Of a DNA stretch of 22,830 bases, positions 1 to 13,564 are shown piece by piece; position 1 is the first letter of the stretch, and every line of letters starts with the position of its first letter. A program made the position numbers and the translations under genes. This DNA is from a virus, in the IMG/VR virus record IMGVR_UViG_3300046822_000181, positions 1 through 22,830 of that record; one strand, written 5' to 3'. Under the pieces are notes generated by a model. That model saw only the letters and a program-made list of their open reading frames with translations, searched no databases and was not told where the DNA came from.

Positions 1-741
1 CTCGGCGGTTCCCTCGATTGTGGCCAGCCGTTGCTCGACGGCTTTGAAGCCACTACGAGGTGGTTTTGGCGCGCCGCGCCGCCCCCCCCGGCTTTGGGGG
101 GGGCTTAGGGGGGGTCTTTCTTGTCTTGTCTGGTACTGTCTTGTAGTCGCGCGCGACGTTTCGTCGGGGGTTTCACACCCCGTTTCATGCTGCGTTTCGA
201 AACGCGTTTCAGGTATTCGCATTAGTGGTATGTAATGCGTTTCAGTCGGTGTTTCGAAACGCGTTTCAGTAGGTGTTTCTGGGTGGGCTTGTCCGTTTGG
301 TTTGTCGGGTGGTGGAGCGCCGTTGTGGTTTGCCCTCCAACGCTTGAGACGCTCCCGGTCAACCTCCCTGGTGCGGGCTGATTTGAGCTTCCGATCGTAG
401 GCGTCGAGCACCTGCTCAGCGACCACCGGATGATACCAGCGATTGTCGGCGCACAGCACGAACCCGTGCATGGCAACCGGCCGGTGCCTTGCCCATGCCC
501 GCATATCCTCGCCAAAGTCAGCGAGCATGCAGAGTTCCTCTTCGTCGTTGGGCAAGCTGCCGGCAGGGCATTGCAGCATGGCAGACCAGTACAGCTTGAG
601 CGAGGCAATACCGCCGCGGCCATCCTTGCGGGCAGCCCGATACCAGCTGCTGGTAAACATCCGATGCCCCCAGAGCTGCATCCACTCGAAGCCGCGCAGG
701 TCGCAGTCCGGTGGCGTCAATGGATGCGGCAGATCACTCAT
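1..741 (-). CDS. DUF1376-like phage replication protein, 3' end beyond window
   Basis: Open from ATG at 741 to the left edge (247 codons seen, no stop). The N-terminal ~130 residues, rich in W, Y and L (for example SSWYRAARKDGRGG, ASLKLYWSAMLQCPAGSLPNDEEEL, NRWYHPVVAEQVLDAYDRKL), look like the DUF1376/replisome-organiser N-terminal fold found in phage replication proteins. A basic stretch (REVDRERLKRWRANH) leads into a linker made of ET-x-x tetrapeptides encoded by 12-bp repeats, then a Pro/Gly/Arg-rich stretch over C8/G8 tracts, then a helical region (GFKAVEQRLATIEG). A GGGAGAG ribosome site lies 5-6 nt before the ATG, which overlaps the upstream stop as ATGA. Likely role: origin recognition or helicase loading at phage replication start. 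The family call is by eye; the C-terminal domain is not visible. Confidence 0.6.
   Translation of the reverse strand, partial: MSDLPHPLTPPDCDLRGFEWMQLWGHRMFTSSWYRAARKDGRGGIASLKLYWSAMLQCPAGSLPNDEEELCMLADFGEDMRAWARHRPVAMHGFVLCADNRWYHPVVAEQVLDAYDRKLKSARTREVDRERLKRWRANHNGAPPPDKPNGQAHPETPTETRFETPTETHYIPLMRIPETRFETQHETGCETPDETSRATTRQYQTRQERPPLSPPQSRGGRRGAPKPPRSGFKAVEQRLATIEGTAE
81..114. repeat. C8/G8 hairpin followed by a G7 tract
   Basis: A run of eight C (82-89) and a run of eight G (96-103) can pair around the 6-nt loop GGCTTT, with an extra G81-C104 pair. A further seven-G run (108-114) follows on the plus strand, so G-quadruplex formation is also conceivable. It lies inside the replication gene, about 45 bp from the 12-bp repeat array. 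There is no classical U-tract, so terminator function is doubtful. Confidence 0.6.
158..286. repeat. GTTTC array with 12-bp period (candidate iterons)
   Basis: On the plus strand GTTTC starts at 158, 170, 182, 194, 206, then 239, 251, 263 and 275: five and four units at exactly 12-bp steps, separated by 33 bp. Two units continue as GTTTCGAAACGC and create the 12-bp palindrome CGTTTCGAAACG (193-204, 250-261 with one end base changed). The array lies in frame inside the minus-strand replication gene and encodes E-T-x-x repeats. It could be a replication origin iteron set, a peptide repeat, or both. Confidence 0.8.
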
Positions 742-2367: not shown

Positions 2368-2583
2368 TCAGGCAGCCTCCGCTGGCTCGCGGCAGGCACA
2401 ATCATGCGGCTCCCAAAGGTCGGGCCTCAGCAGATGACGTGGGATGCCGGTAATGCGGCTGATGGCCGGAACCCGCTCAGCGGGTATCTGTCGCCACTGC
2501 GAGACAGCACCCCGCTCGATCCCGAGTTCCCGAGCGATCAAGGCCCGGAAACCACGGCAGGCGGGGGAGCGCAGCAAGTCCAT
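2368..2583 (-). CDS. Cro-like HTH regulator (YdaS-type)
   Basis: 71 aa. The segment ALIARELGIERGAVSQWRQI followed by PAERV and ISRITGIPRHLLRPDLW matches the YdaS/Cro-like pattern (HTH with AVSQW, then the IPA-RV and TGI-RH-LRPD signature). It is divergent from the repressor remnant across a palindromic control region and heads the early minus-strand operon, as expected for Cro. Start: ATG 2583 gives the usual short N-terminus; ATG 2604 would add seven residues. Neither has a strong Shine-Dalgarno. The Cys/Glu-rich C-terminal tail is unremarkable. Confidence 0.7.
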   Translation of the reverse strand: MDLLRSPACRGFRALIARELGIERGAVSQWRQIPAERVPAISRITGIPRHLLRPDLWEPHDCACREPAEAA

Positions 2584-2647
2584 TCCGGTGAGGACAGCGG
2601 GCATCCGACCACGTTAAGCGACCCTAAACGGCTTGGCAAGCCATCAA

Positions 2648-2673: not shown

Positions 2674-2709
2674 AGGGAAACTAAACTCGCGTTATGGCAT
2701 ACCAAGGGT

Positions 2710-3074
2710 ATGACCATTGGCGAACGAATCGCGGCTGCCAGGACGAATGCAGGGCTATCCCAACAGGATGTGGCCAGGGCGTTGGGCGAAGCGCGGTTAA
2801 TCAGTGGGAAAGCGGCACGACCAAGCCCTCGATCACGAGGCGGGCACAGCTCGCCGTCCTGCTGGATATGCGGATAACCGACCTGATCCCCGGCATGCCG
2901 GTGGACGAAATCACAGAGGCAATAGCTCAGATAATTCGAGCAGTGCCGCCAGACAAGCAGGCAGGACTTGTGCTGATGATCGAGCATACCGCAAGGTTAC
3001 TCGCTGATCCTCCCCCAGACCTACCACCGGATAGCCCAGCGCCTCGACGAACAAGGAAGAAGCAGCATTCCTAG
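2710..3074 (+). pseudogene. HTH_3 phage repressor with broken frame
   Basis: From ATG 2710 the frame encodes MTIGERIAAARTNAGLSQQDVARALG, a textbook HTH_3 start. The expected continuation (RSAVNQWESGTTKPS, then RRAQLAVLLDMRITDL) is in the frame one base back (-1), beginning around 2787. Joined, the turn would also lack about two residues that normally sit between ALG and RSAV, which suggests a deletion of about 7 bp. The second frame continues through PVDEITEAIAQIIRAVP to the stop at 3072-3074, with a Pro-rich basic tail and no visible peptidase S24 domain. Unless translation shifts frame, the repressor is inactive. A sequencing error is possible. Confidence 0.65.
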
Positions 3075-12935: not shown

Positions 12936-12967
12936 TCCCTGACCACGGTCCTATGCGCGAGGAACCA

Positions 12968-13564
12968 ATGGCTGAAACCGAAGATAGCAGAGAGAAACGT
13001 CGCGCCTACCTGGCTGCGAACCGGGACGAAATCAACGCGAAAAGACGAGCGCTGCGAGCCAAAAACCACGGAAAGGCACTTGCTAGTAACCGGGCCTGGA
13101 AGGCCGCTAACCGCGAAAAGGTTGACGCCAGGGATCAGGCTTATCGGGCAGCGAACCGTGAGATACTTAATGCGAAAAACCGTGCTTATCGTGCAGTCAA
13201 CGCGGTAAAGGCGAAAGAAGCCATTCGCAGATGGAAGGAGGCGCACCCGGCGCAGTACGCGTTTCTTCACCAAAGAGCGCAGGCGAAACGGCGAAGTGTT
13301 CTGTTCCTGCTTAGCTTTGAGCAGTGGTGGGAGATCTGGCAATCTAGCGGCAAATGGGAACAGAGAGGAATTCGCAGCAGCCATTATTGCATGGCCAGAT
13401 TTGGCGATCGAGGCGCGTATGAGTGCGACAATGTCCGTATTTGTACCGTTCGAGAAAACCACCAAGAATACTTTGATAATCTCGACGCCGAAGCGCGCCG
13501 ACGCATATCGGAAGGCCAAAAACGCCGTCAAGCTAAAGCCCGTCATAACGCTATCCACTTATAA
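12968..13564 (+). CDS. HNH-type (homing-like) endonuclease
   Basis: 198 aa. N-terminal ~85 residues are basic imperfect repeats (RRAYLAANRDEINAKRR, AWKAANREKVDARDQ, AYRAANREILNAKNR), a DNA-binding style common in phage HNH enzymes. C-terminal motif SSHYCMARFGDRGAYECDNVRICTVRENHQE (~138-166) matches the variant HNH of phage free-standing endonucleases (x-MARxGDxGxY-x-x-x-NVRI-x-T-x-x-EN). Start ATG 12968 has GAGG 5 nt upstream; ATG 12953 is less likely. It opposes all surrounding genes, overlaps the GNAT-like gene tail-to-tail by 22 bp, and is visibly lower in GC, so it is probably a mobile homing-type gene. Confidence 0.75.
   Translation: MAETEDSREKRRAYLAANRDEINAKRRALRAKNHGKALASNRAWKAANREKVDARDQAYRAANREILNAKNRAYRAVNAVKAKEAIRRWKEAHPAQYAFLHQRAQAKRRSVLFLLSFEQWWEIWQSSGKWEQRGIRSSHYCMARFGDRGAYECDNVRICTVRENHQEYFDNLDAEARRRISEGQKRRQAKARHNAIHL

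Follow-up and report, generated by a model that had tools for sequence, protein, structure and literature searches.

The window analysed here is the whole of a 22,830-bp linear virus contig, and it begins within a gene for a putative phage replication initiator in which a 5-bp word is repeated at regular intervals. The question raised by this locus is whether the DNA itself is the signal—possibly a replication origin embedded in the gene of its own initiator—or whether the regularity merely reflects a repetitive peptide. Nine copies of GTTTC (span 158–279), first located in the preliminary description and re-found here at the same positions, follow one another with a step of exactly 12 bp within each of two blocks, the blocks being separated by 33 bp start to start (Table 1). 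The motif GTTTC-N7-GTTTC occurs seven times in the window, always in the array, versus 0.03 occurrences expected from dinucleotide shuffles.

On the coding (−) strand the word reads GAAAC, and all nine copies are in frame 0, as GAA ACN, encoding Glu-Thr. The uniform choice of GAA, contrasted in the preliminary description with mixed usage elsewhere, was borne out by the counts: GAA serves in 9/9 array Glu codons, whereas the remainder of the initiator gene has 3 GAA and 9 GAG and the GAA:GAG ratio across seven large ORFs of the window is 16:57; the chance of nine GAA out of nine is thus p ~4e-6 or ~1e-6. With a free third base in the Thr codon (ACA, ACG, ACC) and divergent 7-bp spacers, the 5-mer is all that is fixed. 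The array contains, moreover, two copies in the reverse orientation that the preliminary description does not mention—GAAAC on the + strand at 199 and 256—which complete perfect 12-bp dyads GAAACGCGTTTC together with forward copies. A 7-bp inverted repeat seen by eye in the 33-bp gap was discarded, as it is not conserved in the relatives L002 and L003 and the gap itself is missing in L005.

Table 1 Features of the candidate origin region and of the head of its operon, in positions of the window
Feature	Position	Strand	Remark
Phage replication initiator gene, 5′ 247 codons	1..741	−	Truncated by contig start; about 268 aa in full-length relative L003
N-terminal winged-helix domain, residues 1–140, proposed DNA-reading domain	322..741	−	AlphaFold2 pLDDT 92.9
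Candidate iteron block 1, nearest the N-domain	239..279	+	GTTTC at 239, 251, 263, 275
Perfect 12-bp dyad GAAACGCGTTTC (5-2-5)	256..267		Reverse copy + forward copy
Spacer between candidate iteron blocks	211..238		~60% A+T; missing in L005
Candidate iteron block 2	158..210	+	GTTTC at 158, 170, 182, 194, 206
Perfect 12-bp dyad GAAACGCGTTTC (5-2-5)	199..210		5-2-5 geometry with other words in 14/17 lineages
Purine-rich tract, ACAAGACAGTACCAGACAAGACAAGAAAGA	115..144	− (coding strand)	77% purine; ~15–25 nt past last iteron; conserved in L003, L005, L243
C-run/G-run segment directly past the purine tract	80..114		Also in L003, L005, L006, L243
Cro/YdaS-like regulator heading the operon that extends to the initiator	2368..2604	−	YdaS_toxin E 5.4e-11, P22_Cro E 3.9e-6
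Divergent HTH repressor-like gene (cI position)	2694..3074	+	HTH_3 E 2.3e-4; phrog transcriptional repressors

The initiator and its gene neighbourhood

The encoded protein matches the profile phrog_22470, ‘replication protein’, with an E-value of 1.4e-19 over residues 4–136, i.e. over its N-terminal domain. Concerning PF07120 (DUF1376), it scores 19.9 bits, below the gathering cut-off of 30.1, the corresponding scores of the relatives L139 and L107 being 52.7 and 28.0 bits. The AlphaFold2 model of the N-domain has the order helix-strand-helix-helix-hairpin and matches the structures of DUF1376 phage proteins in BFVD (E 1.7e-12). In the PDB, Foldseek yielded no significant hit for the N-domain; weak structural matches are to generic winged-helix proteins, with the staphylococcal Rep initiators 4pta, 4pql and 5kbj (Z 3.4–4.2) among them. 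The protein is DUF1376-like, as had been supposed, although it does not reach strict membership of the family.

Homologues of the protein are annotated as replication or primosomal proteins in their phages, and the genes that come after theirs encode DnaC-like loaders, DnaB, primase-helicase, RusA or DEAD helicases. The next gene downstream specifies a product of 157 aa with no family match, not recognisable as a helicase loader, the model of which (pLDDT 42.6) was unusable. The Cro/YdaS-like gene and the divergent HTH gene at the head of the operon make the early layout lambda-like. It should also be mentioned that an Acidithiobacillus locus, L053:1025-1836 (−), has two DUF1376-like genes in tandem, of which the first-named type of product is short and has no linker, whereas the other is long and its gene contains the GAAAC array. 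Elsewhere in the window an opposite-strand gene at 12953–13564 (+), which may be a homing-type insertion, lies among the tail genes; its product has basic tandem repeats and a C-terminus matching phrog_16521 (unknown).

Conservation of the word, its spacing and its symmetry

Among four close relatives, units 2–9 of the array have 0/40 variable sites in the core, compared with 13/84 in the spacers, and L002–L004 are without any core change in these units while the third codon positions of the N-domain vary at 41/134. The number of units is 8–9 in this close group, six (contiguous) in L005 and seven in L006, the latter having a 36-bp gap; L007, with an N-domain identity of 71–73%, has just three copies. 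No clear array was seen in the homologues L028, L051, L054 and L058 or in the Paracoccus-type group.

On sequence grounds, the strongest case for conservation at the DNA level is the sister phage L243, which shares neighbouring genes with the window phage and was found via the downstream gene (80% identical), so that it was not selected for its array. Its N-domain shares 56% identity with that of L003 and the ET repeat is missing. The linker-coding segment has instead six copies of GTGAC—at 460, 471, 493, 517, 528 and 540, i.e. with steps of 11, 22, 24, 11 and 12—in codon phases 1, 0, 1, 1, 0 and 0, as well as three copies of GTCAC at 478, 500 and 512 and two GTGACGCGTCAC dyads; the purine tract and the C/G runs known from the window come next. 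The eight GAAAC copies of L139 (steps 23, 22, 23, 11, 12, 12 and 12; phases 2, 1, 2, 1, 0, 0, 0 and 0) encode RKR, KRN, LKR and QRN in addition to ET, and the Acidithiobacillus homologue L052 has eleven copies distributed across three phases. It should be noted that L139 and L107 were both obtained by scanning for the GAAAC pattern; the word in them is for this reason not independent evidence, but their other-frame copies are.

That scan of viral contigs found the 12-bp GAAAC pattern in at least 120 stretches, most of them unrelated low-complexity ET-repeat genes, and the pattern alone is therefore not diagnostic; four of the stretches encode the same N-domain, two of these being new lineages. 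Taken together, the comparison of peptide and codons in homologues that the preliminary description had proposed came out in favour of DNA: judged from the aligned relatives, it is the DNA that has been conserved rather than the ET peptide, in line with the constraint which that description had suspected. Protein-preserving codon resampling per gene gave p ~0.1 for the window, because a repetitive peptide will produce a recurring word irrespective of the predominant Glu codon, and was replaced by the direct tests of GAA/GAG usage, frame and spacing.

The spacing was surveyed family-wide, in 34 lineages, as the distance between recurring 6-mers within the 300 nt that follow the N-domain, with the N-domain of the same genes as control. 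The linker 6-mers peak at 10–12, 21–24 and 33–36 nt; the 12-nt spacing was found in 56 runs from 24 lineages and the 11-nt spacing in 20 runs from 17 lineages, the N-domain control giving 0 and 3. Copies thus lie near integral multiples of the helical turn, and the 12-bp steps of the window agree with the family peaks. Hexamer tracts of the (GGGACA)n type inflate the classes 6, 12, 18 and 24, but not 10–11, 22–23 and 34–35. Such tracts, present in the linkers of L009, L012, L013, L014, L024 and L039, are translated as GQGQGQ or as GTGTGT depending on the phage, hence are kept across reading frames.

As for symmetry, a word followed by its reverse word with exactly 2 bp between the halves, i.e. 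a 12-bp dyad, was present in 14 of the 17 lineages with a clear word (GAAAC, GTGAC, GTAAC and GTCCC) against a placement null mean of 1.75 (p 2e-4), it being understood that the lineages are not fully independent and that the words were chosen for repeating, the 7-bp offset having been no part of the choice. Past the array, most lineages have a 30-nt stretch that starts 2–39 nt beyond the last copy and as a rule has the highest purine content within the gene; L055 is without it, and in L006 it is weak.

At the genome scale, the near-complete relative G003 (41.9 kb) has 41 copies of GAAAC/GTTTC in total, ten of which fall in a single 150-bp window over the array and at most two in every other such window. 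With the array as the sole GAAAC cluster, a single structural site fits better than dispersed operators. Cumulative GC skew, which the preliminary description had offered as a check on the position of the origin, has only a local maximum near the array in this genome, the global extremes being elsewhere, and does not place the origin at the array. In a duplex-stability scan with 100-bp windows the array was among the 9–19% least stable without forming a minimum and the purine tract was not unstable; no A+T-rich unwinding element was therefore seen. The 12 DnaA boxes found, versus 11.2 expected, represent no excess.

Alternative explanations of the array

It is very unlikely that ETxx was selected as a feature of the protein, e.g. 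as a flexible or binding linker, with the regularity of the DNA as a secondary effect. All forward array copies in the window, L005 and L006 are indeed in frame 0 and encode ET, and many unrelated viral genes combine ET repeats with GAAAC each 12 bp; however, every ET pair of the array uses GAA, the architecture persists in L243 without ET, GAAAC is read in three frames in L139 and L052, and the spacings 10, 11, 22, 23, 34 and 35 nt, common in the family, are not multiples of three. A repeat at the level of the peptide is in this respect already largely refuted. Similarly, a minisatellite, in which a 12-bp unit would have been duplicated recently and without function—the alternative that had been left standing in the preliminary description—would explain the variable number of units (8–9 in the close group, six in L005, seven in L006), and tandem-type arrays with identical spacers are known elsewhere among the scanned stretches. 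Here, however, the spacers have diverged and the 5-mer has not, the reverse copies give exact 5-2-5 dyads, and distant homologues hold arrays of other words at the same place, which makes such an origin of the array extremely unlikely.

The array might also be bound by another protein or serve another DNA process, as a repressor operator, a partition centromere or a packaging (pac) site; phased repeats are used by operators and centromeres, too. In addition, relatives have their packaging genes not many genes further downstream, the homologous phage phi297 has a gene for a ParA-like protein near its initiator, and a gene for a terminase small subunit, L172:2208-2972, has four in-frame GAAAC copies at 12-bp steps with diverged spacers, which could be an analogue belonging to a packaging site. 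These explanations are nevertheless improbable, since the word is inside the initiator gene, the array is retained next to differing neighbours (DnaC, DnaB, primase, RusA, DEAD helicase), the 41.9-kb relative is without a second GAAAC cluster near regulators, and the word changes in relatives with diverged N-domains. A signal at the level of RNA in the initiator mRNA—for antitermination, translation control or RNA binding—is hardly credible: the array does lie in a coding, hence transcribed, region and L003 has a NusG-like antiterminator gene two genes downstream, but the helical-turn phasing and the perfect inverted dyads, along with direct copies that relatives have on either strand, would be expected if a duplex is bound and not from linear RNA motifs.

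Relation to known origins and a proposed mechanism

By analogy with the systems compared below, the array very probably represents helically phased iterons for the initiator encoded by the same gene and, together with the purine-rich segment, the origin of the phage, situated inside that gene. This interpretation builds on the DNA-level constraint, the helical phasing, the conserved dyad geometry, the position in a replication gene and the uniqueness in the near-complete relative, all of them observed here. Iteron plasmids, such as RK2, F, P1 and R6K, have longer iterons, which are usually found outside coding sequence. What these plasmids have in common with the window is repeats phased with the DNA helix and, as is proposed for the window, a winged-helix reader, the Rep protein in their case (PMC5043065, PMC10797057).

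The lambda origin lies within its own initiator gene (PMC5043065, PMC7466680). The iterons in the middle of gene O, the codon phases of which are mixed (0, 2, 2, 1), are followed by a comparable purine-rich stretch at +7, and the early operon lies behind a Cro-like gene; in all these respects the locus studied here, taken with its relatives, is similar. The lambda iterons are, however, inverted repeats of 18–19 bp, about 20–24 bp apart and accompanied by a 40-bp A+T-rich element, whereas here there are 5-bp words at 11–12 bp, with 12-bp dyads at 199–210 and 256–267 only, neither inverted-repeat iterons of 18–19 bp nor an A+T-rich unwinding element beside the array. The N-domain exhibits no profile similarity to the N-terminal region of lambda O, a single O sequence being a weak test. 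The parallel with lambda O drawn in the preliminary description holds for the design with linker iterons; no sequence relationship with lambda O was found, and no A+T-rich element is obvious. With regard to O-like initiators, those at L095:251-1243 and L130:5249-6133 have 12-bp repeats (ATGNAACG and GAAACACA, respectively) with no detectable N-domain similarity, and the authors describing phage MD8 reported repeats in their O-like gene.

The pSK41 initiator of the RepA_N type binds, via a winged-helix N-domain, to Rep boxes central in its own gene, and it can do without the linker that the origin encodes (PMC5703833). The array of the window is placed analogously, after the N-domain, as the Rep boxes are in the linker-coding segment, and the weak structural similarity of the N-domain extends to the staphylococcal Rep proteins mentioned above. 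On the other hand, no RepA_N is found among the Pfam matches of the window protein, pSK41 has four Rep boxes compared with six to eleven helical-turn-spaced 5-bp words here, and both host range and gene context are those of a phage. Since the origin-encoded protein segment of pSK41 is dispensable, the variable linker seen here fits. In SPP1 oriL the origin-binding gp38 recognises direct repeats inside its own gene 38, with gp39 as loader and gp40 as helicase (PMC6316719); the location of the repeats is the same as here, but the host group is different and SPP1 has an A+T-rich unwinding element. The origin of P1, oriL, was located within the initiator gene repL by synonymous base substitution (PMC9948254), and is likewise similar in its position, although it is defined by an A/T-rich region and not by a phased iteron array.

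As in the general own-gene origin design, the coding sequence of the initiator was found here to contain recurring words that are conserved as DNA. A DUF1376-like initiator with linker iterons that works like lambda ori or RepA_N, being a member of neither by the tests made, is well supported as a design. In such a scheme the N-terminal winged-helix domain would read the word GAAAC(G); owing to the 12-bp spacing, consecutive protomers would lie on almost the same face of the DNA, and a pair of protomers would face each other on paired sites, GAAAC-GC-GTTTC. Their cooperative loading would then bend and strain the DNA so that the duplex nearby opens, and the helicase would be brought in via the C-terminal part of the initiator and the product of the next gene. 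The peptide over the array would be a tolerant linker and the ETxx pattern a by-product, because the DNA word sits in frame 0. Binding, opening and helicase recruitment are proposed after lambda, SPP1, pSK41 and P1, and we infer both the origin function and the dispensability of the linker at this locus.

A more specific idea, put forward tentatively and rather doubtful, is that of a distinct DUF1376-like type of origin, in which half-sites G-N3-C recur per helical turn and the nucleating element is a 12-bp dyad whose 2-bp centre is invariant. A strand-asymmetric purine tract, with one strand captured by the initiator, would replace the A+T-rich element, and the DNA-reading domain and the word embedded in its gene would change together as one specificity cassette.

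DUF1376, occurring in proteobacterial prophages and phages, is still listed by Pfam as a family of unknown function, and no paper describing iterons in DUF1376 genes was found in the open-access literature. The design with the origin inside the initiator gene is already known, and the DUF1376-like version with phased 5-bp words appears to be a variation on it, in which related viruses keep the spacing and the symmetry while the word, the reading frame and the encoded peptide change. If it is true, the DUF1376 proteins gain a role and the replication origins of many uncultured phages become locatable by sequence alone. The domain–word pairs (GAAAC, GTGAC, GTAAC and GTCCC) would, moreover, be available for studying the evolution of initiator specificity with the site inside the gene of its reader, and the linker repeats ETxx, GQGQ, GTGT and SMDS would be by-products of DNA signals.

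A further array was observed in the gene just upstream of the initiator, in L003:3444-3737 and L243:932-1303, where GAGCGAGCC-N9-GAGAGTRCC-N9 alternates with a period of 36 bp and encodes ERAxxxESAxxx. Its codons are uniform (GAG in 19/21 Glu, CGA in 9/16 Arg) and its spacers diverged, and it is missing from the window's copy of that gene (738–1235) as well as from L002, L004 and L005; it is possibly a second signal at the DNA level.
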